Virus record (IMG/VR): IMGVR_UViG_3300032177_000015
Coordinates: 1 to 51,993 of that record
Direction: 5' to 3' (one strand)
DNA from: a virus
Length of the DNA: 51,993 nucleotides
Each line of letters opens with the position of its first letter. Position 1 is the stretch's first letter. The notes beneath the pieces are model-generated. The model made no database searches. It was not told the origin of the DNA and saw only the letters and a program-made list of their open reading frames with translations. This document shows, piece after piece, positions 11,075-46,911 of the stretch. The translations under genes and the position numbers were made by a program.

Positions 11075-11086
11075 TATTTATTAGTA
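11075..11086 (-). promoter_or_regulatory. Late promoter, exact TACTAATAAATA
   Basis: An exact copy of the 12-mer reads on the minus strand in the gap between the spike gene and the gp25-like gene, 20 nt before the ATG at 11055. It resembles the T4 late -10 element (TATAAATA) extended by TACTAA. If active it restarts transcription of the baseplate-fibre half of the operon. Confidence 0.65.
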
Positions 11087-11088
11087 AT

Positions 11089-11787
11089 TTAATTATTTTT
11101 TATTTTTAAAGATAAAGTAGTTGGTACTTGTGTTGTTTTTATTAATGTAAATGCAGCAGCATTTCCAGGAGGAGAAGTAACTGCAGGTGCAGCAACATTT
11201 ATATAAGGATGAGTATGTGCAATAATTTGATCTAGTATTGCTTCTAATGTAGTTTTTAAAGTTTCTCCTAAAATAGAACTTTCAGAAGGAGTTGTTCCTC
11301 CAAGTAATTCTATCTCTGTAGCTTTTATTTTAATTTTACCATTTTTATCTATAAATATAGAAGCTGTTGGATGATAAATAAAAATTTCTTTATTTCCTGA
11401 ACTACTATCTACTCCTATACATATTCCATTAGGATAATAAGTATATTTAGCATTAGGGTATGCTGCTGCTGATCCAATAGAAGATTTAATATTATTTTCA
11501 AATAAATTATGAGGATGTAAATTACTAAAATGAATATCTGCTAAATAATAGGGTTGTCTCATTAACTCATCTACATCTTCATATCCTATCCATACATAAG
11601 AGTTATTTTCAGGTATACTTGATTTACCATAAGTACCGCTTCCACCTGTTGCAAGTGAATACTGTTTTGCCCATGGAAGTTCAGAATTTTTTATATTATA
11701 ATGAAGATGTTCAATTTTTATTTGAATTCTTCCTTTCTTTTTTGTATCATTATTATTTATAACTTTAGCTGGAAATGGTCCTTGCAC
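11089..11787 (-). CDS. Baseplate central spike protein (gpV/gp5 OB-fold type)
   Basis: The 232-residue protein starts with an OB-fold typical of gpV/gp5/VgrG spikes: KVINNNDTKKKGRIQIKIEH, the 'LPWAKQ' segment, and 'NSYVWIGYEDVDELMRQPYYL' matching 'V-x-V-x-F-x-x-G-D-x-x-x-P'. Repeated strands (IFIYHPTASIFIDKNGKIKI, then KATEIELLGG) fit the triple-stranded beta-needle. A His-Thr-His-Pro segment (HTHPYIN) near residue 190 may bind a metal at the tip, as in other spikes. No lysozyme domain is present, unlike T4 gp5. The spike pierces the outer membrane when the tail contracts. Confidence 0.8.
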   Translation of the reverse strand: MQGPFPAKVINNNDTKKKGRIQIKIEHLHYNIKNSELPWAKQYSLATGGSGTYGKSSIPENNSYVWIGYEDVDELMRQPYYLADIHFSNLHPHNLFENNIKSSIGSAAAYPNAKYTYYPNGICIGVDSSSGNKEIFIYHPTASIFIDKNGKIKIKATEIELLGGTTPSESSILGETLKTTLEAILDQIIAHTHPYINVAAPAVTSPPGNAAAFTLIKTTQVPTTLSLKIKNN

Positions 11788-11799
11788 TATAAACTCCTT

Positions 11800-12099
11800 T
11801 TATTTACGATTATCTAAAATGAATTGTTTTATATCGTCTAATTTTGGAATAAATAATTCACTTAAAGGAACAATTTCAAATATATCTTCAATATTATTTA
11901 AAAGTAATATAATATCCCAATAATCTATTATACCATAATAACTTTGAGAAATTAAATATGGGCGTTCTATCTCTATTTTAGATATTTTATGTTTATAATA
12001 TCCATTTGTCCATTTAAAGTCTTTCCATACAACAGATACTGAATCTCTTATTACATTTCCATCTGTTTCATCTAATATTAATTGTACTTTTTCTCTCAT
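11800..12099 (-). CDS. Small baseplate protein, gp53/LysM-like
   Basis: This 99-residue protein has the pattern of gp53/LysM-like baseplate components: RPYLISQSYYGIIDYWDIIL, then LNNIED, then IVPLSELFIPKLDDI, which corresponds to 'D-x-I-A-x-x-x-Y-G-x-x-x-x-W-x-I-x-x-x-N-x-I-x-D-x-x-x-L-x-x-G-x-x-L-x-I-P'. In T4 gp53 binds the wedge to the hub. It sits between the spike and the upstream structural gene, and the order supports a baseplate role. Confidence 0.55.
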   Translation of the reverse strand: MREKVQLILDETDGNVIRDSVSVVWKDFKWTNGYYKHKISKIEIERPYLISQSYYGIIDYWDIILLLNNIEDIFEIVPLSELFIPKLDDIKQFILDNRK

Positions 12100-12107
12100 A
12101 AATATTC

Positions 12108-12827
12108 CTATCTTTCAATTCCACCAGCAGTATAATTCATTCCATCTCTAAAATATTCAGCTAATGCAGGAGTTAAACTTTGTATTTGTAAATTAGCACT
12201 TGCCCATAGTGGATATCCTTTTTCTGTAACATGTTTAGAATATGTTGGAGCAATTGCAAAAATAAAAGCTACAGGAAGAAAAACAACTCCAGGAATTAAA
12301 ACAGAAAATAAAGCACTATATTGAGATTCAAGAATATTTCTAAGTTCTTTTTCTCCTGTTTTTCCACCACCCAATTCCTCAATTAATGCGGTACTTTTTT
12401 CTTTAGCCGCACCAATTATTTTATTAACATCACTAACATTTGTTGCATTCAGCCCTGGAATTTTAATTTTTCCTTCTACAAATCTAGGTAAATGAGCTCC
12501 AAGTAATGCATTCATAGGAATAAGTACATCTGTTACTGGATTTGTTTTTGTGTAAAAAAACAAATCAAGAGTTATTTTTACTGGATTAGTTTTTCGCCAT
12601 CTGGGGGCATCTAGTATAGATCTTATATTAAATCCAGCAGTAGAAACTCCACCCGAAGAGGCAGATTCATAAGTAATACCTAAATCTACAAGAGATGATA
12701 TTGTTGGACATAATTCAGCAAAATTACTAAATTCAGTTGATGTTTCTATTTGAAAATCTTCCATAATAGGATAAGTTAAAGTAGATGCCAAATCAGGAGT
12801 TTGAAAAGTTATAATCATTCTATTCAT
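12108..12827 (-). CDS. Virion structural protein between tape measure and baseplate genes
   Basis: No definite family recognised. The 239-residue protein has beta-rich ends (MIITFQTPDLASTLTY...; GYPLWASANLQIQSLTPALA) and a central region with a long Gly/Lys linker and a hydrophobic stretch (YSALFSVLIPGVVFLPVAFI, about 168-187) that could be a membrane segment or a buried core. In T4 the corresponding position after the tape measure holds gp48/gp54, which cap the baseplate and start the tube; this protein may do the same. That assignment rests on position only. Confidence 0.5.
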   Translation of the reverse strand: MNRMIITFQTPDLASTLTYPIMEDFQIETSTEFSNFAELCPTISSLVDLGITYESASSGGVSTAGFNIRSILDAPRWRKTNPVKITLDLFFYTKTNPVTDVLIPMNALLGAHLPRFVEGKIKIPGLNATNVSDVNKIIGAAKEKSTALIEELGGGKTGEKELRNILESQYSALFSVLIPGVVFLPVAFIFAIAPTYSKHVTEKGYPLWASANLQIQSLTPALAEYFRDGMNYTAGGIER

Positions 12828-12830
12828 TTA

Positions 12831-14399
12831 TTACCCCTTTTCAGCTAATTTTAAAGTTCCTGTTTTACTTAATGAAAAATTCATTGCTTTAACAGTTTGA
12901 GTTTGTTTTGAACTTATTTCCAAATCTGATAATAAACCAGTTTGTTTAGCCGCAGCTAATCTAGTAGCAGACATTCCAGTTTCTTTTGATAATTCTCTTA
13001 ACTTTAATGCATCTCTAGCTTCTGCAGCTGTTAATTGACCAGTTGCTACTAATTGTTTTTCTGTTGCATCTGTTTTTGCCGCTTGAACAACAATTGATTG
13101 TGCAGCTTCTTTTTCAGAAGCCTCTATTTGTTGTTTATGTTCTTTATAATCCATTATACCATAATCGGAAACAGCTCCAATCCAATCTAATAAATCACTT
13201 ATAACTTTAGTTACAGTAGACATTGCAGAAGTTACTCCACTAGCAACTGTACTAAAAAGACTACTTATCATATTTATTACAGGAGTTAATTTTTTAAGTA
13301 CTGGAGCGGCTGCTTTAGATAATGCTTTAAATAATCTTTTAATAGGGTCTATAAAAATAGATCTAAATATATTACTAAGTACAATATATCCTGTTTTGAA
13401 AACAGCAATTGCTCCTATTATAAAAGTATATAATCCTTTAATGAGTCTAATAGGAAGTAATATAATAGCTTTAATTACCTTTATTATTCCCATAAAAATA
13501 ATGCCAAGAATTTTAAATAAAAATTTACCAACTATCTTTAAATATGGTAACATAGGAACTATATAATTATTAAAAAATGATTTAATTTCATTAAACATAT
13601 CCATTAACATTGGTTTAATAAGAGCCCAATTATCATATATTAAATATCCTAATAATGCAACAGCTGCAACTAATGCAACAATAGGTAGACTTAGAGCCCC
13701 TATAACACCAGCTACAGTAGTTATTATTGGCATTATTGTAGATATTAACCAAATACCTGCTATTAGAAGTGGTAACCATTGTGCAATAAAATCAGCAAAT
13801 TTAAGTAATGTTTTATTTTCTATACCTAACATTTTAAAAATAGTTCTAAAAATTGTTTTTAAAATACTAGGTATAATTTTAGTTAATAAATTCCAAAAGA
13901 ATTTTAAGAGAGTCGGTATAAATTTAATTAACCCTATTATAGCACTTCCAATAATACTGAGGAACCAAGGAAGAAATTTTTGTATAATTCCCATTCTAAG
14001 TAATATTAAAAAGGCAATAAGAGTAGTAATAAAACTTACTGATGCCATTCCTTTTAAAAATCCTAAAGTTTTTTGAAAGAAATTAGATTTAATAACTTTT
14101 TGCCATTTTTCTGTTATCCAAGATTGTTTTTTCTTATCTCCATCTTTTGGTTCATTTTTTTTATCGAATTTATTTCCTGATTCTGTTTCTCCATATACTT
14201 TTTCTACAATTTCTATTAAACGAGTAAATCTAGTAATAAGCATATTATGTAGACCTTTGATAGCCATAGTAAACATACCATTGCCACCAAAAAATTTTAT
14301 CATAAAAGGGGTGTATATTTTATTAACTTTTATTTCTTCTTTTTTTAATTCCTTACTAAGAGGTTTATTAAAATCAGGCATTACAAAACTATCTTCCAT
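12831..14399 (-). CDS. Tail tape-measure protein
   Basis: The 522-residue protein has the tape-measure build: a charged N-terminal part with Lys/Glu-rich linker (to about 95), a very hydrophobic middle with many potential membrane helices (about 115-420), and an Ala/Lys-rich coiled-coil-like C-terminus (KEHKQQIEASEKEAAQSIVV...). It sits after the overlapping assembly-protein frames and before the baseplate genes, the canonical position. It sets tail length and is thought to enter the host membrane during DNA delivery. At roughly 1.5 Angstrom per residue of extended helix it would imply a tail of modest length. A late-promoter copy lies 19 nt upstream. Confidence 0.75.
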   Translation of the reverse strand: MEDSFVMPDFNKPLSKELKKEEIKVNKIYTPFMIKFFGGNGMFTMAIKGLHNMLITRFTRLIEIVEKVYGETESGNKFDKKNEPKDGDKKKQSWITEKWQKVIKSNFFQKTLGFLKGMASVSFITTLIAFLILLRMGIIQKFLPWFLSIIGSAIIGLIKFIPTLLKFFWNLLTKIIPSILKTIFRTIFKMLGIENKTLLKFADFIAQWLPLLIAGIWLISTIMPIITTVAGVIGALSLPIVALVAAVALLGYLIYDNWALIKPMLMDMFNEIKSFFNNYIVPMLPYLKIVGKFLFKILGIIFMGIIKVIKAIILLPIRLIKGLYTFIIGAIAVFKTGYIVLSNIFRSIFIDPIKRLFKALSKAAAPVLKKLTPVINMISSLFSTVASGVTSAMSTVTKVISDLLDWIGAVSDYGIMDYKEHKQQIEASEKEAAQSIVVQAAKTDATEKQLVATGQLTAAEARDALKLRELSKETGMSATRLAAAKQTGLLSDLEISSKQTQTVKAMNFSLSKTGTLKLAEKG

Positions 14400-14417
14400 T
14401 TATAAACCTCCTATTTT

Positions 14418-14429
14418 TATTTATTAGTA
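14418..14429 (-). promoter_or_regulatory. Late promoter, exact TACTAATAAATA
   Basis: An exact minus-strand copy lies 19 nt before the tape-measure ATG, followed closely by an AGGAGG ribosome-binding site. It comes directly after the hairpin at 14436-14460, so one unit appears to end and the next begin here. Confidence 0.65.
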
Positions 14430-14460: not shown

Positions 14461-14727
14461 TTGACTTGTTGCTTTTTTCATTTCAGCTTGTTTAGCTTTT
14501 TGATAAATTTCATATTGATTCAGTCTTTTTTTAAGAATCCATCTTTTCATTTTAAGTATTTCAGTTTCAGACAATCCAACTCTATATACCAAAATAAAAA
14601 TCAAGTCCTGAATTGAGTTGAGATTTTCTCTGGGCATCATTTCCTGAATCTTGTTTACGATAATTGAGGGGGAGAAGTTGTCTTGGATCGATGAAATCCC
14701 GAAGTAACCTCTTTTCCGATTCACCAC
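14443..14727 (-). CDS. Overlapping downstream frame of tail-assembly protein (frameshift or internal start)
   Basis: This frame overlaps the 390-aa gene by 146 nt in a different frame and runs 139 nt past its stop. Its downstream part (DLIFILVYRVGLSETEILKM and the basic helix after it) looks like genuine protein, whereas the upstream part shadows the other frame. Reaching it from the 390-aa gene needs a +1 or -2 shift. A run CTC CCC CTC inside the overlap (about 14661-14669) is a plausible +1 slip site at CCC-C. Alternatively, an internal ATG at 14637 has AGGA just upstream. Position directly before the tape-measure gene is where tail-assembly chaperone frameshift pairs occur. Start therefore uncertain. 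Confidence 0.5.
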   Translation of the reverse strand: MVNRKRGYFGISSIQDNFSPSIIVNKIQEMMPRENLNSIQDLIFILVYRVGLSETEILKMKRWILKKRLNQYEIYQKAKQAEMKKATSQIPSFK

Positions 14728-15754
14728 ATAAAGGGCAAATCAGCTCTGTTTCCGTTTGTAGACCAAAAGAAATATTTTCAAATAAATCTTCTATATTTCT
14801 CATTGTTTTACGTTTAATAACATTTTTAAATTCCTCATATTTTTCACTATCAGAAAGAATTAAATTATTTTTAGTTATTAACATCATTGATTTTGCATAA
14901 AGAACTATTACTTTTGCTTGTTCGTCTTTTAATTCTTTTATTTCATTTTCTTTTTTTTCTTTTAATTCATAAAGAGGAACATTTGCTTCTCGTCTATTTT
15001 GAATATTTTTTATTTTAGATCCATATAATTTATCTGCATATTTTTTTGCTTTAATTATATCTTCAAGTCTAGGATATCTTATTGTATATATATCTTTTTG
15101 TGCAATAATATGGAAGGGTTCCTTTACTAATACTTTTGATATTTCTTCTTCTTTGGTATAAGTATCAATATCATCTAAAGGATTAGTTTTATATTTAACT
15201 AATAGATATTGTTTAAATTCATCTGAAGTCATATCAGCAAATCTTTCAGTTAAGAATTTTTTCATTTCTTCATCAACCTGAGTCATTGATTTAAAATTAA
15301 GATCTGATAATTCAAGAATAAGTTCATTTATGATTCTATCTTTATCGCTTTTTTCAGATTGACAATTACATACCCAATAATGAATATGAGTATTACCTTC
15401 AAATTGTTGTTTTATTGCAATGAGTGTTTCTAATAAATCTTCTGCACTCATATCTTTAATATTAAAATTTGGTTCATTTCTTTTTAAATTGTTAAGAATA
15501 ACAATTAAATTTTCTAGAAGATTATCTTGAGTAGATAATTCAATATCATTAATGTGTTGACCATTAAAATCATCAAAATAAAGAGTAGTAGGTGTTCCAA
15601 ATCTTCCTTGGGATTCATAATTAATTTTAACTAATCCTGCTGTATTTTGAAATTCATTTTCTTTTTCTGTTTGTTCTTCTAATTTTTTATTTTCTATTGT
15701 TTGATTTCTTCTTCTTGCTACCTCTTCTGGTTTTAATATAAAACTTTCAGCCAT
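14582..15754 (-). CDS. Tail/baseplate assembly protein with zinc-binding cysteines (tentatively gp26-like)
   Basis: The 390-residue protein is acidic and helical. It has a Cys pair in HYWVCNCQSEKSD (about 148-150) and a second pair CPLCGESEKRL (about 342-345), which could form a structural zinc site. Proteins of this kind (T4 gp26-type hub assembly factors and tail chaperones) are encoded just before the tape measure in myoviruses. The C-terminal ~35 residues fall in the overlap with the following frame. A late-promoter-like motif precedes it at 15782-15793. I cannot assign a precise role; assembly chaperone is inferred from position and overlap. Confidence 0.5.
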   Translation of the reverse strand: MAESFILKPEEVARRRNQTIENKKLEEQTEKENEFQNTAGLVKINYESQGRFGTPTTLYFDDFNGQHINDIELSTQDNLLENLIVILNNLKRNEPNFNIKDMSAEDLLETLIAIKQQFEGNTHIHYWVCNCQSEKSDKDRIINELILELSDLNFKSMTQVDEEMKKFLTERFADMTSDEFKQYLLVKYKTNPLDDIDTYTKEEEISKVLVKEPFHIIAQKDIYTIRYPRLEDIIKAKKYADKLYGSKIKNIQNRREANVPLYELKEKKENEIKELKDEQAKVIVLYAKSMMLITKNNLILSDSEKYEEFKNVIKRKTMRNIEDLFENISFGLQTETELICPLCGESEKRLLRDFIDPRQLLPLNYRKQDSGNDAQRKSQLNSGLDFYFGI

Positions 15755-15781: not shown

Positions 15782-15793
15782 TTTTTATTAGTA
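15782..15793 (-). promoter_or_regulatory. Late-promoter-like motif (one mismatch)
   Basis: TACTAATAAAAA on the minus strand lies 28 nt before the ATG at 15754, with AAAGGAGA as ribosome-binding site in between. It sits in the gap after the second tube-like gene. Confidence 0.55.
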
Positions 15794-15800: not shown

Positions 15801-16433
15801 TTATAATGCAGACGTGCCTAATGATAATCTGATACTATCACAAGTAAATTCTGTAGTTAATATCTCATTTTCTCCTGAAGTATGATCATAACCAATACCC
15901 GTTATATTTTTAAATTTCATTCCATCTATTTTTATCCATTCTGGAGAAGGTAACATATCTGTTTGAAGAGGAATAATTAAACCTGTTCTTTTACTATCAT
16001 CTTGATTATCTTTAAAAAGATAATCTCTCTTTAATGTTCCTAATGCTGGAGTATATACAGCTATTGCATCTTGCCATTTTCTAAAATATCCTTTTACACT
16101 ACCAGTTCCATTCTCAATAAAAGTACAATTAAAAGTATCTGGATATATCATATCTTTTATATAATTCATTCCACCGTATCGTTGATATTCAAATCCAACT
16201 AAAGGAATATCATTGATCGAATATAAATTAAATTTCATGATTATTGTATCTAATGAAGTTAAAACAATTCCACCAGCAGTAGAAGGAAAAGTTTCTGGAT
16301 AAATAATCATTTCAAATAAACACTTATGCTGCATAGAAGTATTACTTAATATAGCAATATCAGCTTCATTAAGTATTCCTGCAGTATCTACTCCTTTTTT
16401 ATAAGTATTTATAATATTGTTTGCTATTGCCAC
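15801..16433 (-). CDS. Tail-tube-like structural protein (second copy type)
   Basis: The 210-residue protein has the tube-fold pattern: an N-terminal helix, a strand with FEMIIYPETFP, a central INDIPLVGFEYQRYGGMNY, then DTFNCTFIENG followed by a helix YFRKWQDAIAVY as in gp19-type subunits ('F-x-x-T-F-x-E-x-x-x-x-x-x-x-x-F-x-x-W-x-x-x-I'). It overlaps the preceding tube gene by one base. It is longer than T4 gp19 (163) and may form a tube-initiator or terminator ring rather than the main tube. Ends at a promoter-containing gap. Confidence 0.6.
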   Translation of the reverse strand: MAIANNIINTYKKGVDTAGILNEADIAILSNTSMQHKCLFEMIIYPETFPSTAGGIVLTSLDTIIMKFNLYSINDIPLVGFEYQRYGGMNYIKDMIYPDTFNCTFIENGTGSVKGYFRKWQDAIAVYTPALGTLKRDYLFKDNQDDSKRTGLIIPLQTDMLPSPEWIKIDGMKFKNITGIGYDHTSGENEILTTEFTCDSIRLSLGTSAL

Positions 16434-16945
16434 TATTCTACCGTCATTACTACATAAATAAAAATAACAGTAATTCGTAAAGGATCGCCTGATTGATTGT
16501 CAAATGTTTGAATTTTAACAGACTTTGGCTTGGCATATTTAAAACTAATTGATTTTACTCCTGCTTGTGTTCTATCTTCTGCTTGAATTATAACAGTACT
16601 TCTAGCCATTATTTCTGGAAGAGCTGTACCATTACTATGATCATAAGACATATCAGCCCATTTTCGCATATCATCATATACTTTCCAAGCTTGATCAAGT
16701 CTTATATCTATTGTAAATTCTTTAGTAGTTTCTTGTAACATACCTGTTTTAGGAATTTTAAAACCTTTTCTAAATATTTCATATACATTTACTACATCTT
16801 CAGGTGGATCAAAAGTTTGGTCACATCTTAAAGATATTGCATTTGCATCTCCACCACCTGGAATACCATTTGGAAATATAATTGAGAACTGGCTGGCCAA
16901 AGCGTCATCACCAAGCGAAAGTATCTGATCAGTAGAAATTGTCAT
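16433..16945 (-). CDS. Major tail tube protein
   Basis: The 170-residue protein lies immediately downstream of the sheath gene, as gp19 follows gp18 in T4, and matches gp19 in length. Features include DDALASQFSIIFPNGIPGGG at the N-terminus, a middle segment KEFTIDIRLDQAWKVYDDMR with tube-like strand-then-helix, and a C-terminal strand DPLRITVIFIYVVMTVE. It would polymerise into the hexameric tube inside the sheath. A late-promoter-like motif overlaps the hairpin upstream, allowing separate high-level transcription. Confidence 0.7.
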   Translation of the reverse strand: MTISTDQILSLGDDALASQFSIIFPNGIPGGGDANAISLRCDQTFDPPEDVVNVYEIFRKGFKIPKTGMLQETTKEFTIDIRLDQAWKVYDDMRKWADMSYDHSNGTALPEIMARSTVIIQAEDRTQAGVKSISFKYAKPKSVKIQTFDNQSGDPLRITVIFIYVVMTVE

Positions 16946-16976: not shown

Positions 16977-16988
16977 TTTATATTAGTA
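16977..16988 (-). promoter_or_regulatory. Late-promoter-like motif (TACTAATATAAA)
   Basis: This minus-strand sequence differs at two positions from the consensus and overlaps the 3' arm of the hairpin at 16982-17020. It is 32 nt before the tail-tube ATG, with AGAGGT as ribosome-binding site. Confidence 0.5.
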
Positions 16989-17026: not shown

Positions 17027-19177
17027 TTAAATTATTAAACTTTCAATAGAAATTGTTTGAGAAACTCGTGTAAGTCTTAAAATAATCCACTCACTTGTTG
17101 GAGTTATTTTACAGTAAAAATCCAAAATAAATTGACGATTATTTAAAACAATATCAGTATTGTTACTAGAATCACACACAATTTTGAATTCCCGGATCCA
17201 ACCATTCGCTCTAATAGGTTCAACAAATTCTTCTGTTTGAACTTTTGCCATAAGTCTATGAAGAGGATCATTTATTTTAAATTCTTGTTTTCTAAGAATT
17301 TGTTTAGAAATAACATCTAGCATATATTTATATACTCGTCTTGTTCCTACAAAACTTGTATCGCTATTCGTTACTTGAAGAGTTTGATCTCCATAAGCTA
17401 ATAAACCATAAGAAGGATCAAGTAGTAATGGATTTATTTGAGCATTATAAAAAGAATCTAATTCTGCTTGAGTATAATCTATTTCTACTTCTTTCACTGA
17501 CCAATCATTTAATTGTCCACCATGTCCATTTTCATCAAGTCCTGCAGGAGCAGCAGCATCATAAACATCTGACATATAAGCAAATTTTTTACCTACTGAT
17601 CCTACATGAGATATCCATGCAAAACTATTATTATAATCATCTTGAATTTTAGCCCAATTATGATAAAGTCCTATATCATCTGTATCAAGAGCTAGTGCAG
17701 ATCTAAAAGATAAAGCTTGTGAAGCACTATAACCAAGTGGAACACATGTAATACCTTGTGCTTGTGTTTGATAAGTTTGAATAAGAGTATTTATTGTTGA
17801 TGCATGTGTACCATATACATCCATAAATATTTTAGCTTTATATTTATTAGCATATTGAAATTGATTCCATGCTGTAGTATAATCCCCTGTTAATGGAGTA
17901 GCTCCCCTAGATCCACCAGAAAATGCAATTGCTGTAGAAGCAACTGTATATGGAGTAGAAACAAAAGCAGAATTAAGTTTAAAAGTTACATATGGATTTT
18001 CATCAAATACGTCTATATAATATAAAGATTTACCAAATGCATCTTTTTCATTTATGAGTGAATAATTATAAGTATTAAGAAGTGAATTGCCTGTTGAAAG
18101 AACTCTATAAAGGGTTAAGGTAAATTTACTCCCAGATACATAAGTTATTGAAGCTGCTAAATCATCTATATAGGGAGAAGTTGTAAAAAAACTATGAGAA
18201 ACTACAGAAGAAGTATCAACTGTATAATGATAATTAAAAATAACTGCTTCTCCATATTTAGGAATTGATAAAGTTGGGTTAGATCCAATATCTGTTAAAC
18301 TTGTTCCACCAGAACTGAAAACTATTGTTAATGCTGAATCTCCTGTTGTAGGAGTTTCAACTGTTATACTACCAATGGTACTTCCATTTCTTCCTGTTAA
18401 TCTAATATAATTTGTATCGACTACTGCTGCAGTATATCCAAAAGCTGAATTAATGGCAGAAATTACAGAAGCTCTTGAAGTAGTCGCAGATTGACCAAGA
18501 TTAATAGTTTGAATATTACCATCAATAGATATTTTAATATATTTATCTGTTGATCCTAAACTTAAATCTAAAGTTGAACTAAAATTTACATTTGTAATAA
18601 CAGTTGCATAACTTCCAACAACTCCAGCAAATGTAATTGAATATACACCTGTTGCTAATACTACTGAACCTGCTGTAATATCTGTTCCAGATAATGCACC
18701 ACCTGTCGCCATTGTAACAACTTTTTCATAACCATTAACTAATACTTTAAAATTAGCTTCATCAGCTACTGGAATATTTGTTATAATTCCTGAATAAGTA
18801 GCTGTAATACCTGTACCTATCCCAACTGAATGAGTTGCTCCTTTTAAAGTAGATCCATAATTAAAGGTACTAGGTGTTCTACCAACTCCAAAAGTAGTTA
18901 CAGTTGCTGCACCTACATCTACTCCACCATAAACTGCTCCAATTCCAATTGCACAAGCTACATATAAAGGGGCTCTTCGTGTAAATGCAATTGCTTCAAA
19001 AACTCCATGATAAGTTGCAGAAGGTCTACCCAATTCTCTTAAACAATCTTCTTCTGATTGTAAATACATTGGAGTTGATTTTCCTTTTGCTGTAGTTAAA
19101 ACCATCGCTCCTGTTTCATCAACAAGAGTATTTATAAATCCTGAAAGATCTTTTTCTATAATTTGTGTTCTACTCAT
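17027..19177 (-). CDS. Contractile tail sheath protein
   Basis: At 716 residues it is similar in size to T4 gp18 (659). The N-terminal region (MSRTQIIEKDLSGFINTLVD...TRRAPLYVACAIG) and the C-terminal domain have the gp18/FI sheath pattern: 'AFSGGSRG' near 420, 'LYHNWAKIQDDYNN' and 'AYMSDVYDAAAPAGLDENGH' in the middle. Near the end comes 'VQTEEFVEPIRANGWIREFK', then 'IVCDSSNNTDIVLNNRQF', the C-terminal domain that binds neighbouring subunits. The central roughly 250 residues (Gly/Thr/Ser/Val-rich) form the exposed insertion domain. It contracts to drive the tube through the envelope. Its own exact late-promoter copy lies 51 nt upstream. Confidence 0.9.
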   Translation of the reverse strand: MSRTQIIEKDLSGFINTLVDETGAMVLTTAKGKSTPMYLQSEEDCLRELGRPSATYHGVFEAIAFTRRAPLYVACAIGIGAVYGGVDVGAATVTTFGVGRTPSTFNYGSTLKGATHSVGIGTGITATYSGIITNIPVADEANFKVLVNGYEKVVTMATGGALSGTDITAGSVVLATGVYSITFAGVVGSYATVITNVNFSSTLDLSLGSTDKYIKISIDGNIQTINLGQSATTSRASVISAINSAFGYTAAVVDTNYIRLTGRNGSTIGSITVETPTTGDSALTIVFSSGGTSLTDIGSNPTLSIPKYGEAVIFNYHYTVDTSSVVSHSFFTTSPYIDDLAASITYVSGSKFTLTLYRVLSTGNSLLNTYNYSLINEKDAFGKSLYYIDVFDENPYVTFKLNSAFVSTPYTVASTAIAFSGGSRGATPLTGDYTTAWNQFQYANKYKAKIFMDVYGTHASTINTLIQTYQTQAQGITCVPLGYSASQALSFRSALALDTDDIGLYHNWAKIQDDYNNSFAWISHVGSVGKKFAYMSDVYDAAAPAGLDENGHGGQLNDWSVKEVEIDYTQAELDSFYNAQINPLLLDPSYGLLAYGDQTLQVTNSDTSFVGTRRVYKYMLDVISKQILRKQEFKINDPLHRLMAKVQTEEFVEPIRANGWIREFKIVCDSSNNTDIVLNNRQFILDFYCKITPTSEWIILRLTRVSQTISIESLII

Positions 19178-19227: not shown

Positions 19228-19239
19228 TATTTATTAGTA
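19228..19239 (-). promoter_or_regulatory. Late promoter, exact TACTAATAAATA
   Basis: An exact minus-strand copy 51 nt before the sheath ATG, with GAGGT ahead of the start. This is the head of the tail module. Confidence 0.65.
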
Positions 19240-19361: not shown

Positions 19362-19373
19362 TACTAATAAAAT
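19362..19373 (+). promoter_or_regulatory. Late-promoter-like motif before the lipoprotein gene
   Basis: TACTAATAAAAT (with one extra A, TACTAATAAAATA) on the plus strand, 88 nt before the lipoprotein ATG and pointing to it. A second promoter-like box (19399) lies between. Confidence 0.45.
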
Positions 19374-19398
19374 AAACTATAAAAATTATAATAAATAG

Positions 19399-19427
19399 TT
19401 TAATTTTTTAAATATTTTTATATATTA
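19399..19427 (+). promoter_or_regulatory. TTTAATTTTTTA-type promoter-like sequence
   Basis: A TTTAATTTTTTA box at 19399-19410 is followed after about 11 nt by TATATTAT. It has the same arrangement as at 35662 and 39491 and lies 35 nt before the lipoprotein start, so this gene may have both an early-type and a late-type promoter. Confidence 0.35.
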
Positions 19428-19461: not shown

Positions 19462-20760
19462 ATGAAAAATTTTAAATATTTACTAAGTTTTATAACAATT
19501 ATTTTTCTTATTTCTTGTGGTGGTAGTAGTAGCAATAATAATGACAGTAATGGAAAAGAAGAAAATGATAATCCTATAACCTCTAATTCTAAGGCATTAA
19601 TATCATTTTCTATTATAACTCCCGAAGTTGTTGGTCTAATAGATGAAACAATGAAAACAGTTTCTATAATAGTACCAATAGGAACAAATAAAGTAAATCT
19701 TATTACTGCTTTTGAAACAACTGGAGTAAAAACAACAATAAATGGAATTGAACAAATAACTGAAGAAATCCCTAATGATTTTACAAATTCCGTTATTTAT
19801 ACTATACATGCAGAAGATACTTCAACAGTAAACTATACTATAACAGTTATAACTGCAACTAGTGTAGATAAAAGTATATTATCTTTTTCTTTAAATGGAA
19901 TAAATGCTACTATCAATGAAACATTAAAAACTATTGATTTAACTGTTCCAAATGGAACAGATGTAACTTCTATGGTAGCTACTTTTTCAATATCAGGAAC
20001 TACTGTTAAAATTGGAAGTACAATTCAAATTAGTGAGGAAACTACAAATAATTTTACAAATCCTGTAACTTATAAAGTAATAGCGGCAAATTTAAGTGAA
20101 CAAGAATATTTAGTGACTGTAACTATAGCAGAATCAATAATTACTTATAATATTACAAGAAATATTCCTTTAATTCCAATTGATTCAAATTTCTTCTATT
20201 TAATAGAAGCAACTAAAGAACTTTGGTATTATAGAACTAAAACATTAAGTAAATACATTTGTTCATATACTGAAACAATATCAACATATTCTAATGGAAT
20301 ATTTGTCAGTTCAATTACATCTGATCCAATTATATATACTTTTACAGATTTCTTTTCTATAGGACTTGGAATAAATAAAGTATTATATTTTACAATAGAT
20401 AATAAAAATTATAAACAACAAAATGGAATTATTACAGAAATTGTAACTCTTCCTATAAGACCAATAAAATCACTGGTAACTGGTTCAACAGTAAACTTTA
20501 CAATTACTTATAACTCATACACAGATACATCTCAAGTTCGGGGATTTAATTCATCTAATACATTTCAAAGTAAAATAATTACTGATTTTGTAGAATCTTA
20601 TTGTCCAGTAGGTACGGGGTTTGAAACTGCTCCTGCTTTATTTACAAATGTATCTATTGCAAGTTTTGATTTTTCTGTAGGTCTTTATTACTTAAGAAGA
20701 AGTAGTGTTGCTGGAGTGTATGGAATAATGGTTAAAGCTGGTAAAGGAGAAATGTGGTAA
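19462..20760 (+). CDS. Phage-encoded surface lipoprotein with two cadherin-like beta repeats
   Basis: The N-terminus is a lipoprotein signal: basic start, hydrophobic core and lipobox LISC with C19 as the lipidated residue, then a Gly/Ser/Asn linker. Two related domains of about 85 residues follow (45-130 and 138-223), sharing 'L-I/S-F-S-I/L', 'I-N/D-E-T-L/M-K-T-I/V', 'V-P-x-G-T', 'T-x-F-x-x-x-G' and a final 'x-Y-x-I/V-T-V'. This is the pattern of DUF5018/cadherin-like repeats seen in bacterial surface lipoproteins. The C-terminal half (about 225-432) is beta-rich and unrecognised. It could be placed in the host outer membrane during infection, for superinfection exclusion or receptor masking, or be a virion-associated protein. 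AGGAG precedes the ATG. Confidence 0.75.
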   Translation: MKNFKYLLSFITIIFLISCGGSSSNNNDSNGKEENDNPITSNSKALISFSIITPEVVGLIDETMKTVSIIVPIGTNKVNLITAFETTGVKTTINGIEQITEEIPNDFTNSVIYTIHAEDTSTVNYTITVITATSVDKSILSFSLNGINATINETLKTIDLTVPNGTDVTSMVATFSISGTTVKIGSTIQISEETTNNFTNPVTYKVIAANLSEQEYLVTVTIAESIITYNITRNIPLIPIDSNFFYLIEATKELWYYRTKTLSKYICSYTETISTYSNGIFVSSITSDPIIYTFTDFFSIGLGINKVLYFTIDNKNYKQQNGIITEIVTLPIRPIKSLVTGSTVNFTITYNSYTDTSQVRGFNSSNTFQSKIITDFVESYCPVGTGFETAPALFTNVSIASFDFSVGLYYLRRSSVAGVYGIMVKAGKGEMW

Positions 20761-21138: not shown

Positions 21139-22269
21139 ATGAAAAAAATTTTATATATTTCACCATATGAAGAATTTATTTTAGCACAAAATGGTGGATA
21201 TGGAGTGATAGCAGAATCATTTAAGAAAATGTTTGATATTATAGAAAATATAGAAGTAACTTATATAAATATAAATGAATTAAGTATGGGAATATATAAG
21301 AATATTGTTAATAAATATGATATTTGTATTATATTAACTCATCCATTATCATTTGAAAATAAAATAGTTAAACAAAATATAGAACAAGTTACAACTTCAT
21401 GTATTAAAATTTATTTACATTTATTTTGGGAAACTATTCCTTTACCTTCTAAGTGGAAATGGTTATGGGCATCTAATTTATTTACTGGATTTATATCACC
21501 ATCTAAATTTATTTATGATATGATTAAAGATGAAATAAAAGGAACAAATAAAGAAAATCATCTTATATATTGCCCAATATTTAAAGATGATTTTTCTAAA
21601 TATAAAATAAAAATAGAAAATAAAAATAATGAAAATATATTTACTGTTTTATATATAGGACAATATACTAAAAGAAAAGGAATGGAAGATGCAATAATAG
21701 GATTTTTACATGCATTATCTCAATATAAAGATTGTAGATTGATATTAAAATATCATCCACTATCTAATAAAGAGTTAGAAATTCCATTATTATTAAAAAC
21801 ATTAGTTAGTACAAATTCAAAAGAAATGAAAGCAAAAATTTATGAAATTACTCAAAATTTAAATAAAGATGAAATTTATTCTCTATATACAGAATCATCT
21901 ATATTATTATTTCCTTCTAGAGGTGAAGGATTTGGATTACCTTTAATAGAAGCTGGAATGATTGGATTACCTTGCATTTATACAAATTGGTCATCAACTA
22001 TTGAAACTGGAAAATTTAAGGGAAATAAATCTATCTCTTGTATTCTTGATACTGCTCAAGGTATGTCTCATTATGAGTATGAATCAAATTCAATTTATGC
22101 TATTCCATCAATAAAAGATATTATTAAAAATTTAAGAGATTGTTATAATATGTGGAAGTTAAATAAACAAGAATATTATATGAATACTAATAATAATGAT
22201 CTTGAAATTATTAAAAAATTTGGTAAAAAAAATTTTATTGAACAAATAAATAAACTCATAGGAGAATAA
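21139..22269 (+). CDS. GT-B glycosyltransferase (GT4-like)
   Basis: The 376-residue protein has the two-domain GT-B layout. An N-terminal acceptor half has a Gly-rich loop (NGGYGVIAESFKK), and a C-terminal donor half starts at about 172 (VLYIGQYTKRKGMEDAIIGF). The diagnostic donor-site segment LLFPSRGEGFGLPLIEAGMI (about 258-277) holds the E-x7-E motif of GT4 enzymes. It would move a sugar from a nucleotide-sugar to a growing glycan in the cytoplasm. It opens a tightly packed plus-strand operon: the next gene starts 3 nt after its stop. The real substrate cannot be read from sequence. Confidence 0.8.
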   Translation: MKKILYISPYEEFILAQNGGYGVIAESFKKMFDIIENIEVTYININELSMGIYKNIVNKYDICIILTHPLSFENKIVKQNIEQVTTSCIKIYLHLFWETIPLPSKWKWLWASNLFTGFISPSKFIYDMIKDEIKGTNKENHLIYCPIFKDDFSKYKIKIENKNNENIFTVLYIGQYTKRKGMEDAIIGFLHALSQYKDCRLILKYHPLSNKELEIPLLLKTLVSTNSKEMKAKIYEITQNLNKDEIYSLYTESSILLFPSRGEGFGLPLIEAGMIGLPCIYTNWSSTIETGKFKGNKSISCILDTAQGMSHYEYESNSIYAIPSIKDIIKNLRDCYNMWKLNKQEYYMNTNNNDLEIIKKFGKKNFIEQINKLIGE

Positions 22270-33911: not shown

Positions 33912-33917
33912 TAAATA
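33906..33917 (+). promoter_or_regulatory. Late promoter, exact TACTAATAAATA, overlapping the tnpB stop codon
   Basis: An exact plus-strand copy whose TAC-TAA-TAA supplies the last Tyr and stop codons of tnpB. It points to the 93-aa gene at 34013 (95 nt away), which ends in its own terminator. Confidence 0.6.
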
Positions 33918-34012: not shown

Positions 34013-34294
34013 ATGTTTAAAACATGGAGAAAAGTTAAAACTCTTCAAGACACTGTAACTGCTGCAGAAGTAACAGCTACAAAAAAAATTATGTTTGTAG
34101 GTACAGGAGTTCCAGCACATGCAACAGATCCTTTTGCATATACACTTGGAATTAAAAGAGGAGAAGTAGATTATTCGTTTAAAACAAAACATGCATATAG
34201 TACTGCATCAGGAGCAGTTGTTATTTATAATAATAGTTCCGATTATGTTCTCACAGCAGGGGATGTAGTTACTATTATAGGTACTTACGTGTAA
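34013..34294 (+). CDS. 93-aa beta-rich protein in its own late-type transcription unit
   Basis: The protein (MFKTWRKVKTLQDTVTAAEV...DYVLTAGDVVTIIGTYV) is Thr/Val/Ala-rich with strand-turn patterns, no signal and no cysteine. It has an unusually strong CAGGGGG ribosome-binding site, an exact late promoter 95 nt upstream and a classic terminator 11 nt after its stop, so it is designed for separate, high expression. Small, abundant beta proteins of this kind are often capsid or tail decoration proteins; that is inference. It interrupts the glycan operon and may be the protein whose modification the operon provides. No homologue recognised. Confidence 0.65.
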   Translation: MFKTWRKVKTLQDTVTAAEVTATKKIMFVGTGVPAHATDPFAYTLGIKRGEVDYSFKTKHAYSTASGAVVIYNNSSDYVLTAGDVVTIIGTYV

Positions 34295-36474: not shown

Positions 36475-37845
36475 ATGAAAATAGAACTTAAAGGAAATCC
36501 AAATTATTGTGCAACTATAGTACAAATAGATAGTATAATTGAACTTGAAGATTGTACACAAATACAAGGAACTATTATTCAAGGTAATCATGTAATAATA
36601 TCTAAAGATGTAAAAATAAGTGAGGATGCAAGAATAAATGATATAGGTATATTTTTTCCTATTGAATGCTCTATCAAAGAAATATTTCTTAGAGCAAATA
36701 ATCTATATAGGGATAAAGAACTTAATGAGGATAAAACTAAATCTGGATTTTTTGAATTAAATGGTAGAGTAAGATGTGTGAAATTAAGAGGATTTAAATC
36801 AGAAGGATTTTTTATTCCTTTACAAAGCATAAATTTTTTAACATCTAAAGATACTATATTTGATTTGACTAAAAACATACCTCTTATTACAATCGGGACA
36901 GATTTTGATCATATAAATGGGCAAATGATTTGTAAAAAGTATTTTGTACCAACTAAACAAGTTCAAAATGTTTCTAAGAAAGATAAGAAGAATAATAGAA
37001 TAAAAAGATTTAATAAATTGCTGGACAATCAATTTAAATTTCATATTGATACAGCACAATTGGCAAAAAATATTCATATGATACAACCAAATAATTTAAT
37101 AAGTATTACAGAGAAAATTCATGGCACTTCTGCAATAACTTCTTATATACTTTGTAATAGGAAACTTACATTAAAAGATAAAATTGTTAAGTTTTTTGGT
37201 GTTAAGGTAGAAGAAACAGAGTATAGCTATATATATGCATCTAGAAAAGTTATAAAAAATCAATATTTATATGAAGATAAACTTAATCATTATTATACTA
37301 CTGATATATGGAAAGTAGGAGCAGAAGAACTTAAACCATTTCTTCAAAAAAATATGACTATATATTATGAAATCGTGGGATATTTATCTGATGGTAAAAT
37401 GGTACAGAAGAGTTTTGACTATGGTTGTAGACAAGGACAACATGAGAAATATATCTATCGTATAACAACTACAAATTCAGATGGAAAAGTAACTGAATGG
37501 TCTATGTTTCAAATTCAACAATGGTGTAAACAAAATGGTCTTAAGGCAGTACTTGAACATTATTATGGATATGCTAAGGATTTATTTAAAGAAATAATAG
37601 AGTTTACTTCTAATGATATAGAAACATGGCAACATTTATTTCTTGAAAAATTACAAGAAACTTATCTTGAAAAACAATGCTCAATGTGTCTGAATAAAGT
37701 TCCGAATGAGGGAATCTGTTTAAGAAAGGAATCTTTAAATATTGAAGTATGGAAATTAAAATCATTTTTATTTAAACAGTTGGAAAGTAAACAAGCAGAT
37801 GAAGGATTAGAAAATATAGAGGATAATCAAGGAGAAGAGATATGA
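36475..37845 (+). CDS. RNA ligase, DraRnl (Rnl5) type
   Basis: The N-terminal ~180 residues form an OB-like domain as in Deinococcus RNA ligase. The nucleotidyltransferase core follows: motif I TEKIHGTS with K214 as adenylated lysine, motif III YYEIVGYLSDG, motif IV EGICLRKES, motif V EVWKLKSFLF. The 'K-x-H-G-T-S' wording is characteristic of the DraRnl group, which seals 3'-OH/5'-phosphate nicks in RNA-containing duplexes. Phage RNA ligases often repair tRNAs cut by host anticodon nucleases or other abortive-infection systems. A C-terminal acidic tail (EGLENIEDNQGEE) is extra. Its start abuts the amber-interrupted gene. Confidence 0.85.
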   Translation: MKIELKGNPNYCATIVQIDSIIELEDCTQIQGTIIQGNHVIISKDVKISEDARINDIGIFFPIECSIKEIFLRANNLYRDKELNEDKTKSGFFELNGRVRCVKLRGFKSEGFFIPLQSINFLTSKDTIFDLTKNIPLITIGTDFDHINGQMICKKYFVPTKQVQNVSKKDKKNNRIKRFNKLLDNQFKFHIDTAQLAKNIHMIQPNNLISITEKIHGTSAITSYILCNRKLTLKDKIVKFFGVKVEETEYSYIYASRKVIKNQYLYEDKLNHYYTTDIWKVGAEELKPFLQKNMTIYYEIVGYLSDGKMVQKSFDYGCRQGQHEKYIYRITTTNSDGKVTEWSMFQIQQWCKQNGLKAVLEHYYGYAKDLFKEIIEFTSNDIETWQHLFLEKLQETYLEKQCSMCLNKVPNEGICLRKESLNIEVWKLKSFLFKQLESKQADEGLENIEDNQGEEI

Positions 37846-43618: not shown

Positions 43619-43638
43619 TTTAAAAATGTGAACTTAAC

Positions 43639-43656: not shown

Positions 43657-43693
43657 ATCTTCCTACTCTGAGTGTCTAATAACTTGCTCATAT

Positions 43694-44842
43694 CTAACAG
43701 GCGTTAATTTCCTCTGTTCCGGAGGTATTTAATTTTAAAAGTGGGTAATCCACTTTAGTTAAACCAAAATTCTTAATATTTATAGCAGCATTAATATCTC
43801 TATCATGAGTTTCACCACAATCACAAGTCCATTGTCTATCTGATAATGTCAAATTATTATTTAACATTCCGCAAGAATGACATAATTTAGTTGATGGGTC
43901 AAAACGACCAATAGAGATTATGGTTTTACCATACCAATTAGCTTTGTAATTTAATTGTCTAACAAACTCAGACCAGCTAACATCACTTATTGCTTTAGCT
44001 AATTTGTGATTTTTAACCATATTAGATACTGCTAAATCCTCAATACAAATAGTTTGGTTTTCACTAATTATTTTTGAAGAAAGTTTGTGCAAGAAGTCCT
44101 TACGCTGATTAGTAATTTTTTGATGAGTTCTTGCTACTTTAATTCTACTTTTATTTTTATTATTACTTCCTTTTATTTTATGACTATATTTTCTTTGAGC
44201 TTTCTTTAACTTCTTTTCTGATTTCTTCAAGTGTTTAGGATTAGAAATCTTTTCTCCATTACTTGTTACTAAAAAATCCTTAATTCCCAAGTCAATACCA
44301 ATAGTAGTTTTCTCATTTACTGTCTTTGGTTCAATTATATTATCTGTTGTCTCAACAAGAATAGTAGCAAAATATTGGTCAGAAGGATTTTTAGAAATAG
44401 TTAATGTTTTTTCTTTTCCTTCGTATAATCTGTGTTGAATTATTTTAATTCCTTCTTTTAATTTAGGAATATATAATATTCCTTCTTCTATTTTATAATG
44501 TTGAGGAATTTGAAAACTTTTATGATTATCGTGTTTCTTTTTAAATTTAGGAAAACCCTTTTTATTACGGAAAAAATTCTTAAAAGCTATATCTAAATTT
44601 CTCATTTCCATTTGAAGAGATTGAGAATTTATTTCATTTAACCAAGGATATTCTTTTTTGAGTTCTGGTATTTTGTTGTTTAATTCAATCCATGATATAC
44701 TTTTCTTGGTATTAGTATAATGTTTAGTTTTAGCGTCAAGACCCCAATTATATAAGAAACGTGTAGAACCAAAGTGTTTAGCTAAAAACACTTTCTGTTC
44801 TTTGTTAGGGTAAATGCGATATTTATAACCTTTCTGTATCAT
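43694..44842 (-). CDS. tnpB: TnpB-type RNA-guided nuclease, intact
   Basis: The 382-residue protein has the full TnpB order with catalytic D184 (GIDLGIKDF), E268 (CIEDLAVSNM) and D347/D349 (THDRDINAAINI), and zinc ligands C321-x2-C324 and C340-x-C342. The C-terminus SGTEEINAC is a widespread ending in this family. A guide RNA would come from its 3' part and the right end, about 43620-43760 on the minus strand; CCTCCGGAACAGAGG there can form a scaffold hairpin. Its sequence differs strongly from the TnpB at 32685 (SADMS in place of GIDLG), so the two arrived independently. Confidence 0.92.
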   Translation of the reverse strand: MIQKGYKYRIYPNKEQKVFLAKHFGSTRFLYNWGLDAKTKHYTNTKKSISWIELNNKIPELKKEYPWLNEINSQSLQMEMRNLDIAFKNFFRNKKGFPKFKKKHDNHKSFQIPQHYKIEEGILYIPKLKEGIKIIQHRLYEGKEKTLTISKNPSDQYFATILVETTDNIIEPKTVNEKTTIGIDLGIKDFLVTSNGEKISNPKHLKKSEKKLKKAQRKYSHKIKGSNNKNKSRIKVARTHQKITNQRKDFLHKLSSKIISENQTICIEDLAVSNMVKNHKLAKAISDVSWSEFVRQLNYKANWYGKTIISIGRFDPSTKLCHSCGMLNNNLTLSDRQWTCDCGETHDRDINAAINIKNFGLTKVDYPLLKLNTSGTEEINAC

Positions 44843-44938
44843 ATTTATATATTAACCAATTATTTATAAAAGTAAACAAATTTTTCTTAAATTTTAACAT
44901 TTTTTTAAAAAAACTTAAATTACTTCGCCTTATATACA

Positions 44939-44955
44939 CACCTCTAAAGAGGGTG
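44939..44955 (-). repeat. Left-end hairpin of the IS200/IS605-type element
   Basis: CCTCT-AA-AGAGG (44941-44952) forms the core stem, with CA and TG pairing outside across one bulged G. It lies 97 nt upstream of the tnpB ATG. The CTCTTTAGAG core on the minus strand is identical to that of the right-end hairpin. Confidence 0.6.
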
Positions 44956-44991
44956 CATTTTTACGGCAGTTTTATAAATTGAATTTGTTAT

Positions 44992-45990
44992 TTAACACAT
45001 ATGAATAAAACTAATATCAGGAATTTGTAACCATTTCTCTTCTATTTTATCTTTAAGATCTGTTACATACACCCAAATAAATTTTCTTCTTTCTTTTTGT
45101 CTTTTAATATTTTGTTTATTGCTTCTAGCTTGGCTTCTAATAATTTTCGCACTAATTCCAGATTCTTGTTCTGCTATATAGCAATTTTGATAGGTTTTTA
45201 TAAAATCTCCTTGTAAACTATATTGAGAAATTGGATTAACACTCATTAAGTTTTTATTTTTTAAACTTATTTTCATTGCCTCACTTCTTTTTTGAATAGT
45301 AATTTTTGATTGTTTTATTCCTTTATGAGAATCAGAACATTTTTTCTTAGATTCTTCTGAATTTTTTTGCCCTTTTCTGGGGCTTGATTTTCCTAATTTT
45401 TTATCACTCATTATTTTCAATGTTTCATTTGAAAAAACACCAATTTTCCCTCTACTCCAATGACTGCCACCATTCTTATAATATTCAATAAGAGAATTTG
45501 ATGTATTTATTCCAATCATTAAAATAGAAATATTATCATCTTTAGTTAGTCCTTTATTCCAAGGAGTTGGCATAATTGCGCCACTAACTCCCTCGCCGCC
45601 ATCAGTCATATTTGTTAAAATACCTAATTTTTTATCTTTTCTTCCAATTAACTTTATAAAAAATCTTTCCAATAAATAAGAAGTTTCTTCTTCTAACTTC
45701 TCACAAATTTTATAAATAATTATTTCTTCTCCTTCTCTTTGAATTTGATTTATAGTATTTATTTTATGTCTGTTGTATTTTAGTTTTTCTTCTTTAATAG
45801 TTTCTTCTTCGATGATATCATAATATTTTTTAGCTTCTTTTAAATGAGAATCTAATCTCAAATCTTTTCCTTTTCCAATATAAAATGGAGCACAGGGAAA
45901 ATCTATACCTATTCCGTTTTCCATATAACTATAACTTCCGGGTTTTAAGGGGTTACAATAAACATATACATATACATAAAATTTATTCAT
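44992..45990 (-). CDS. GIY-YIG homing endonuclease with NUMOD repeats
   Basis: ATG at 45990 (MNKFYVYVYVYCNP) has GAGGT upstream and gives the usual family start; an ATG 21 nt earlier lacks one. The GIY-YIG core contains VYVYVY, FYIGKGKDLRLDSH (conserved Arg and His) and the catalytic Glu in TSYLLERFFIK, then LTNMTDGGEG. DNA-binding NUMOD3-type repeats (TPWNKGLTKDD; SPRKGQKNSEESKKKCSDSH) and a NUMOD1-like segment (SQYSLQGDFIKTYQNCYIAE) follow. The last about 22 residues (LKDKIEEKW-x2-IPD...FIHMC) copy the end of the neighbouring structural protein (LKEDIQTKW-x2-IPD...FVHMV), indicating insertion at that gene's 3' end. Such enzymes spread into phages lacking them. Confidence 0.85.
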   Translation of the reverse strand: MNKFYVYVYVYCNPLKPGSYSYMENGIGIDFPCAPFYIGKGKDLRLDSHLKEAKKYYDIIEEETIKEEKLKYNRHKINTINQIQREGEEIIIYKICEKLEEETSYLLERFFIKLIGRKDKKLGILTNMTDGGEGVSGAIMPTPWNKGLTKDDNISILMIGINTSNSLIEYYKNGGSHWSRGKIGVFSNETLKIMSDKKLGKSSPRKGQKNSEESKKKCSDSHKGIKQSKITIQKRSEAMKISLKNKNLMSVNPISQYSLQGDFIKTYQNCYIAEQESGISAKIIRSQARSNKQNIKRQKERRKFIWVYVTDLKDKIEEKWLQIPDISFIHMC

Positions 45991-46042
45991 CTTTCTACTT
46001 ACCTCTAACATTTTGAAATAATAAAAAACTGTAATTTTCTAT

Positions 46043-46054
46043 TATTTATTAATA
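46043..46054 (-). promoter_or_regulatory. Late-promoter-like motif before the homing endonuclease
   Basis: TATTAATAAATA on the minus strand, one mismatch from the consensus (the characteristic C is T). It lies in the 123-nt gap between the structural gene and the endonuclease. Weak evidence in A/T-rich DNA. Confidence 0.3.
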
Positions 46055-46134
46055 TAAATATTTTAAAAAATATTGGAAAATATATAAAAGTTAGAGATTT
46101 ATATATCTTATCAGGGTACAGCCTTATCCAAAAT

Positions 46135-46884
46135 TTATACCATGTGAACAAAAATATTATCAGGGATAGCATCCCATTTTGTTTGAATATCTTCTTTTAA
46201 TTTAGAGGCTCTTTCACTTAATTTCTCGATATTTATATTTATTTCCAATCCGGAATCTACTAATATAGAAGCACTATCTGATAAATGATCTAAAACTTCT
46301 GCCTGACAAAGTTTAATTACATCATCTCGTCTTTCAAATTTAACATCAGCAAAATCATTACTATATTTAGCCCAAGTAACATTCAATGCTCCAGTAATAG
46401 AGCTATATACAATTAGTTTTCTATTTTCTATATCTACTCTTGTTTTAATAGTTGTATACATATTTTGTTGAGATTTAAATCTATATCTTTCCATATCTCT
46501 TTGTTGCATTAACTGTGATGGATTATAACCTTTTACACCATAAGCACCAACACCTTTAATTGTTGCTGTATTTGATGTTGTATTCATAAATAAAATTAAA
46601 TCCCAAAATGATGTACCACTTCCCGGAAGTAATCCAATATCCACTACTCTTGCATCTAAAACACCGAAGGTGTAATCGTCTGGAAATGTTACAAATGTTT
46701 CTCCATTTATTGAAGCAGTATATTCCTCTTTAAGAGGAAATTTTGTAAAATATCGCTGTAAAACAGGGAATATACAAAGATCTTTTATTTCTTCGTCATC
46801 TAATAAAAGTGAATCGACCATCGGCGCAGCAATGACTTTTTTTATAAGATTTAAATAATTATCTTCTATTAAAATATCTGACAT
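46135..46884 (-). CDS. Virion structural protein, probably neck/connector
   Basis: The 249-residue protein has an N-terminal helical part (YLNLIKKVIAAPMVDSLL; LCIFPVLQRYFTKFP), a beta middle (ETFVTFPDDYTFGVLDARVV) and a C-terminal helix pair (DVIKLCQAEVLDHLSDSASI; LSERASKLKEDIQTKW). This pattern occurs in head-completion or neck proteins of large myoviruses. It is downstream of the terminase and has an exact late promoter 16 nt ahead of its ATG. Its C-terminal ~21 residues are duplicated at the end of the adjacent homing endonuclease. Exact role unproven. Confidence 0.5.
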   Translation of the reverse strand: MSDILIEDNYLNLIKKVIAAPMVDSLLLDDEEIKDLCIFPVLQRYFTKFPLKEEYTASINGETFVTFPDDYTFGVLDARVVDIGLLPGSGTSFWDLILFMNTTSNTATIKGVGAYGVKGYNPSQLMQQRDMERYRFKSQQNMYTTIKTRVDIENRKLIVYSSITGALNVTWAKYSNDFADVKFERRDDVIKLCQAEVLDHLSDSASILVDSGLEININIEKLSERASKLKEDIQTKWDAIPDNIFVHMV

Positions 46885-46899
46885 TTGATTTCCTCTTTA

Positions 46900-46911
46900 T
46901 ATTTATTAGTA
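46900..46911 (-). promoter_or_regulatory. Late promoter, exact TACTAATAAATA
   Basis: An exact minus-strand copy 16 nt before the ATG of the neck-like gene, with AAAGAGG as ribosome-binding site. Confidence 0.65.

Follow-up and report, generated by a model that had tools for sequence, protein, structure and literature searches.

A candidate late promoter element lacking a −35 box, and a divergent sigma-70-family gene, in an uncultured lineage of contractile-tailed phages

Results

A recurrent 8-mer upstream of structural genes

We found that the word TACTAATA, eight letters long and trailed by about seven positions filled almost exclusively by A and T, recurs immediately upstream of genes in a group of uncultured contractile-tailed phages. 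We consider that it probably acts as a late (or middle/late) promoter without a −35 element, read most likely by a phage sigma factor on the host RNA polymerase. The stretch analyzed here (‘the window’) is a complete virus record of 51,993 bases with a GC content of 25%, itself probably a fragment of a larger genome.

The first-pass annotation had described five exact copies of the 12-mer TACTAATAAATA in the window and had estimated that chance would give fewer than one. All five are present at the positions and on the strands given there, and dinucleotide shuffles give only 0.15 expected copies (sd 0.44), with five or more copies in none of 100 shuffles. When up to two mismatches were allowed, the count rose to 76 against 66.6 expected, which is the chance level; a 12-mer with free mismatches is therefore the wrong description, and the 8-mer core was taken instead. 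The window contains 20 copies of the core, about 12 of which stand directly upstream of genes, and the bases that follow the core vary (AATA, ATTA, ATAA or TAAA), so that the conserved unit is shorter than first described. A literature search on TACTAATAAATA found nothing related, and one on TACTAATA together with phage and promoter found no relevant work among the papers listed.

The structural identities of the minus-strand genes (sheath, tube, tape measure and baseplate genes) are clear in the window, and several of the sites on this strand precede them. Exact 12-mers lie at 11075-11086 (core 11079-11086), upstream of a baseplate wedge gene (10468-11055) with an orthologous site at 107289 in the related contig G001; at 14418-14429 (core 14422-14429), upstream of a tape-measure-like gene (12831-14399) and conserved in G001 and G003; and at 19228-19239 (core 19232-19239), in the gap between divergent genes, ahead of the tail sheath gene (17027-19177). 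Cores are also found on this strand at 15786-15793, before a 390-aa gene of the structural block (14582-15754; conserved in G001, G002 and G003), and at 16981-16988, before the tail tube gene (16433-16945; conserved in G001 and G002). Further along the minus strand, an exact 12-mer at 46900-46911 (core 46904-46911) precedes a 249-aa gene with no assigned function (46135-46884; site conserved in G001 and G002), two tandem cores at 48717-48724 and 48727-48734 precede the gene 48310-48681, and a core at 50922-50929 lies 117 nt upstream of a 670-aa gene (48792-50804). On the plus strand, a core at 19362-19369 precedes a 432-aa gene (19462-20760), and another at 22185-22192 lies inside the 3′ end of the gene 21139-22269, upstream of 22273-23304, with the G001 orthologue arranged likewise. 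The fifth exact 12-mer (33906-33917, plus strand) overlaps the stop codon of 32685-33911 and stands upstream of a 93-aa ORF (34013-34294) and a glycosyltransferase gene (34362-35636); it is kept before the same ORF in G001, G002 and G003.

Among the near-matches proposed earlier, those at 15782, 16977, 19362, 48713-48734 and 50918 contain the core, but those at 733 (TACTAATT) and 46043 (TATTAATA) do not. The statement that all copies face late genes across short gaps is roughly correct, except at 33906, with its stop-codon overlap and the 93-aa ORF and glycosyltransferase gene ahead, and at 19362, which faces a 432-aa gene without identification.

Several other genes of the window could also be assigned. 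The glycosyltransferase genes at 21139-22269 and 34362-35636 both belong to the plus-strand block, 36475-37845 encodes an RNA ligase (phrog_968), and a transposase-family gene at 43694-44842 (phrog_506) adjoins a homing-endonuclease-like gene at 44992-46011.

Enrichment, orientation and conservation in related contigs

Related contigs were found by a scan with the sheath gene; those that carry the motif range from 65 to 156 kb. The sheath is 81% identical to that of the window in G001 (155,573 b), 75% in G002 (77,111 b), 64% in G003 (65,884 b), 100% in G004 (83,334 b) and 53% in G005 (45,538 b). G004 is not independent of the window, because the two are nearly identical where they overlap. Exact copies of the 12-mer number 11 in G001, five in G002, two in G003 and four in G004, against none, none, one and one, respectively, of the reversed word.

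Across the window and G001–G003, TACTAATAA occurs 77 times; 49 of these copies are intergenic, in the roughly 6% of the DNA that is intergenic, and 45 of the 49 point toward the next gene. The reversed word is intergenic in only three of 22 cases. Upstream intergenic sites of TACTAATA itself number 55, compared with an average of 1.9 (sd 2.7, maximum 23) for the 279 other orderings of the same letters, the top-scoring of which are shifted copies of the TACTAATA site. The condition that the first-pass annotation had named as refuting, a similar frequency within genes or in the opposite orientation, therefore does not apply to the core. The median distance from motif to start codon is 31 nt. Genes were called with a simple script that placed a few starts wrongly (for example, the 11055 start too far in), so these site counts tend to be conservative.

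Unseeded motif discovery in the relatives, which the first-pass annotation had proposed, recovered the same word. TACTAATA ranked first in G002 and G003 and second in G004; in G003 it was merged with an early-type variant, TTTAATTATATTATA. A weak ACTAATA was returned for G005, and in the pooled search TACTAATA came second, behind the ribosome-binding site. Among reciprocal orthologue pairs, the core is upstream of both members in 55, of one only in 23 and of neither in 215, an odds ratio of 94 whose P-value is indicative only because the pairs are not independent; control words gave between zero and five shared pairs. The sheath gene is preceded by TACTAATA in the contigs L001–L009, L063 and L064, with identity down to 43% (L063, L064). 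G005 is the sole exception at this gene among the relatives checked: it has AACTAATA(A/T), in which the first position of the core is changed, before several genes. The earlier proposal of a promoter with strand logic and a late bias is supported by this orientation, intergenic enrichment and gene content, and late genes of the lineage can be searched for by means of the motif.

Divergent back-to-back pairs of TACTAATA with 30-31 bp spacing were also observed, at 115474 (minus)/115504 (plus) and 139101 (minus)/139131 (plus) in G001, 57981 (minus)/58011 (plus) in G002 and 63637 (minus)/63668 (plus) in G003; they represent at least two separate loci.

Architecture of the element

To describe the surroundings of the core, we aligned 71 non-redundant sites chosen by the exact 8-mer. 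Positions 9-15, counted from the core start, are nearly devoid of G and C. No column between −49 and 0 exceeded about 0.1 bit in these sites, and TTGACA-like words upstream of them numbered six compared with five in the control zone, so no −35 element was detected. In DNA this rich in A and T, the C that had been called invariant indeed carries more information than any other letter of the core, and it also ranks highest in the unseeded search; its invariance among the 71 aligned sites arises by construction, because they were picked by the exact 8-mer.

A second, bipartite promoter-like class

G001 also contains a second motif, TTTAATTtT-N10-TTTCTATATATTATA, in 17 copies, 15 of them on the plus strand. 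It can be read as TTTAAT-N17-TATATT, which has the spacing of sigma70 hexamers, and it precedes the helicase loader, methyltransferase and clamp loader genes as well as many small genes. In the replication block of G001 (39.5-98.9 kb) lie 12 of the 17 bipartite copies versus seven of 35 TACTAATA sites (Fisher p = 0.0007). G003, G004 with the window, G002 and G005 each have their own variants of this class. In the window, candidate early (sigma70-like) elements GTTTAATTTTT are found on the plus strand at 1122-1132, upstream of 1172-1426, and at 19398-19408, upstream of 19462-20760, the gene that also has the core at 19362. The bipartite class would thus mark the replication/early block, as expected of a host sigma-70 promoter. 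The gene content behind TACTAATA suggests late timing; given that several TACTAATA sites precede replication-block genes, ‘late only’ would be too strict.

Other features of these genomes may be mentioned here. G001 encodes a 550-aa protein (48269-49921; L030:8269-9921) with about 62 copies of an NQVx-tetrapeptide repeat in its middle. In addition, an N-terminal tag, MKRY(K/E/V)xFxE, recurs on otherwise different proteins, at 48302 and 6074 on the minus strand of the window, in 17 ORFs of G002 and in 10 ORFs of G001. It recalls the capsid targeting sequence of T4, a 10-residue N-terminal tag in which residues 4 and 7 matter (PMC9026906), and may mark internal head proteins.

A divergent sigma-70-family gene

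A 210-aa protein of G002 weakly matches Pfam Sigma70_r2 (PF04542; E = 0.0015 in a six-frame search, below the curated cut-off). Its homologues are encoded at 142642-143265 in G001 (40%) and by the last gene of the window (51%), which starts at 51548 on the plus strand and is cut by the window end at 51993. The contig L075 overlaps this end at 98.3% and supplies the complete 200-aa protein (L075:684-1286); straight after it, at L075:1311-2495 and 2512-3804, are genes for a PARP/WGR-domain protein and an ATP-dependent DNA ligase. The sigma factor family PHROG 1740 (phrog_1740) gives a match with E = 1.2e-5. An AlphaFold model (pLDDT 67) shows two helical domains. The top matches listed by Foldseek against the PDB are sigma factors, with a best E of 0.011 and none passing 0.001, and the best match among viral folds is a phage Sigma70-ECF protein (8e-4). 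Profile and fold matches thus agree on similarity to region 2 of the sigma-70 family.

The C-terminus of the model contains a helix-turn-helix-like unit that resembles region 4 (pLDDT 67); Pfam searches for region 4, including those with C-terminal pieces of the protein, gave no match. The extreme C-terminus is conserved as GYE[LF][AT][IV]. Upstream of the G002 gene lies a sigma70-like TAGACA...TATTAT, as would suit an early gene that switches on the next class. The gene was not found in G003–G005, all of which are fragments, and no close relative of the protein was found in the phage collection.

Discussion

Comparison with known single-element promoters

The closest parallels come from other phages. 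Promoters of phiEco32 gp36 (tAATGTAtA) consist of a single element at the −10 position, without a −35 element, serve middle and late genes and start 6-8 nt downstream of the element; the sigma factor, of about 200-215 aa, works on the host core RNA polymerase (PMC8948821; PMC4281155). The present system is alike in having a short element that lies ahead of genes and keeps one orientation, no −35 element and a small phage-encoded sigma-family protein, the last resting on a model of modest confidence. However, the word differs from TACTAATA, the genome of phiEco32 has six sites where dozens are found here, and hhalign detected no homology between the sigma factors (probability 0.3% against gp36). 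Moreover, gp36 is said to lack region 4, whereas the protein described here seems to keep a region-4-like C-terminus. Among phiEco32-like phages, sigma factors without region 4 (gp36) go with a single element, and those with region 4 (gp47 of phage 7-11) with a bipartite promoter, GTAAtg-(16)-aCTA, that drives late genes (PMC8948821). Phage 7-11 gp47 would thus resemble the present protein in its region-4-like C-terminus and in serving late genes, but not in the form of the promoter.

The late promoters of T4 are 8 bp long, lack a −35 element, are A/T-rich downstream and occur at dozens of sites on both strands, the early class having one polarity; they tolerate A for T at the first position (PMC2988020). 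All of these features have counterparts here, including the one polarity of the early class, the two of the TACTAATA class and the changed first position of AACTAATA in G005, and the gp55 promoter TATAAATA matches TACTAATA at six of eight positions. The first-pass annotation had accordingly read the motif as the T4 late −10 box with a TACTAA extension. We find no support for that identification, given the 8-mer unit with its variable 3′ part: upstream of genes, TATAAATA shows no clear enrichment (27 intergenic sites that face a gene versus 17 for the reversed word), no gp55 was found, and the replication genes of the group (DNA polymerase, DnaB/DnaC and others) differ from the T4 set. A better description is that of an 8-bp element without a −35 box that belongs to its own lineage. 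In its mode of action it resembles the gp55 and gp36 promoters, but the features tested place it in neither group. A known kind of switch appears here in a new variant that is unusually clear.

Alternative readings

It is very unlikely that a true T4-type late system, with a gp55 homologue, gp33 and a sliding clamp, is present and too diverged to be seen. The promoter architecture is shared (PMC2988020), the tail genes are distantly T4-like, and G001 encodes a clamp loader and, as T4 does, a sliding clamp (phrog_947). Against this, searches for gp55 with the PHROG families phrog_234 and phrog_19643, tblastn, an eight-member home-made profile and hhalign gave nothing credible in these possibly incomplete records, and hhalign detected no similarity between the sigma protein and gp55. 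The best multi-genome gp55 match, a 162-aa protein of G001 (83440-83928), reached a probability of just 5.8% with a poor model (pLDDT 52), and was rejected. In addition, the T4-like Campylobacter phage CP81 (Eucampyvirinae), whose sheath ranks with the nearest in the phage collection (27%), shows no enrichment of TACTAATAA (three versus 7.7 expected), and no counterpart of its gp55-like sigma was detected in this group. A single-subunit phage RNA polymerase (PF00940) was also sought without a match, which says little because the control genomes likewise gave none. A 162-aa protein of G001 looks like a helix-turn-helix protein and has the motif upstream of its own gene, and this, together with the fixed short spacing to start codons, would suit a site bound by an activator or repressor of the phage, or an element acting at the RNA level in the 5′ leader, in place of a promoter. 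We regard this as similarly improbable, since the motif is non-palindromic and strongly single in orientation and has no companion −10 or −35 nearby, and an RNA element would have no need for melting-like A/T-only columns downstream.

Rather less remote, but still improbable, is the reading in which TACTAATA is recognized by a host factor, either the housekeeping or an alternative sigma, while the phage protein serves another promoter class. TACTAATA does resemble a −10 box, and a region-4-like domain would suit a bipartite promoter. The bipartite class with its 17-bp spacing, however, already fits the host sigma70 type, and TACTAATA lacks a −35 element and stays identical across phages whose bipartite class differs. 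A search of bacterial genomes for sheath relatives that might indicate the host found none. Finally, TACTAATAA includes stop codons and would be expected often at gene ends in DNA of 25% GC, and the site at 33906 does overlap a stop codon. Nevertheless, sites such as that of the sheath (19228) lie in divergent regions without gene ends, and the same-letter control (1.9 sites versus 55) together with the conservation at orthologues refutes a chance or codon effect.

A possible two-step cascade

We therefore return to the phage promoter as the preferred reading. TACTAATA and the A/T-rich stretch behind it would occupy the −10 position of a late (or middle/late) promoter that has no −35 element and switches on the virion genes of an uncultured myovirus lineage. 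On balance, the divergent sigma-70-family factor (51548 onwards in the window, with its G001 and G002 homologues) is probably the reader, and it would guide the host core RNA polymerase to TACTAATA. By analogy with T4 and phiEco32, transcription would start about 6-8 nt past the 8-mer, or, at a typical site, about 20-25 nt ahead of the start codon. The early genes would rely on the separate host-type bipartite promoter (TTTAAT-N17-TATATT in G001), so that transcription would proceed as a two-step cascade.

A motif without a −35 element is hard to reconcile with the region-4-like C-terminus of the model: either this sigma does not contact DNA through region 4, or its target is something other than TACTAATA. 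It is because of this mismatch that we hold the promoter reading at probable, and the assignment of the sigma somewhat lower. One speculative solution, which we consider doubtful, is that region 4 only holds the flap of the RNA polymerase, or that the GYE[LF][AT][IV] C-terminus tethers the enzyme to the phage sliding clamp, which would be an independent invention of the replication-coupled late transcription of T4.

Taken together, these results outline a transcription programme for an uncultured lineage from sequence alone, with its early and late genes, approximate start sites and probable sigma factor. If the pairing of sigma and element is true, then this lineage separates region 4 from the −35 element, two features that are paired in phiEco32-like phages, and it would offer a direct test of the role of region 4.
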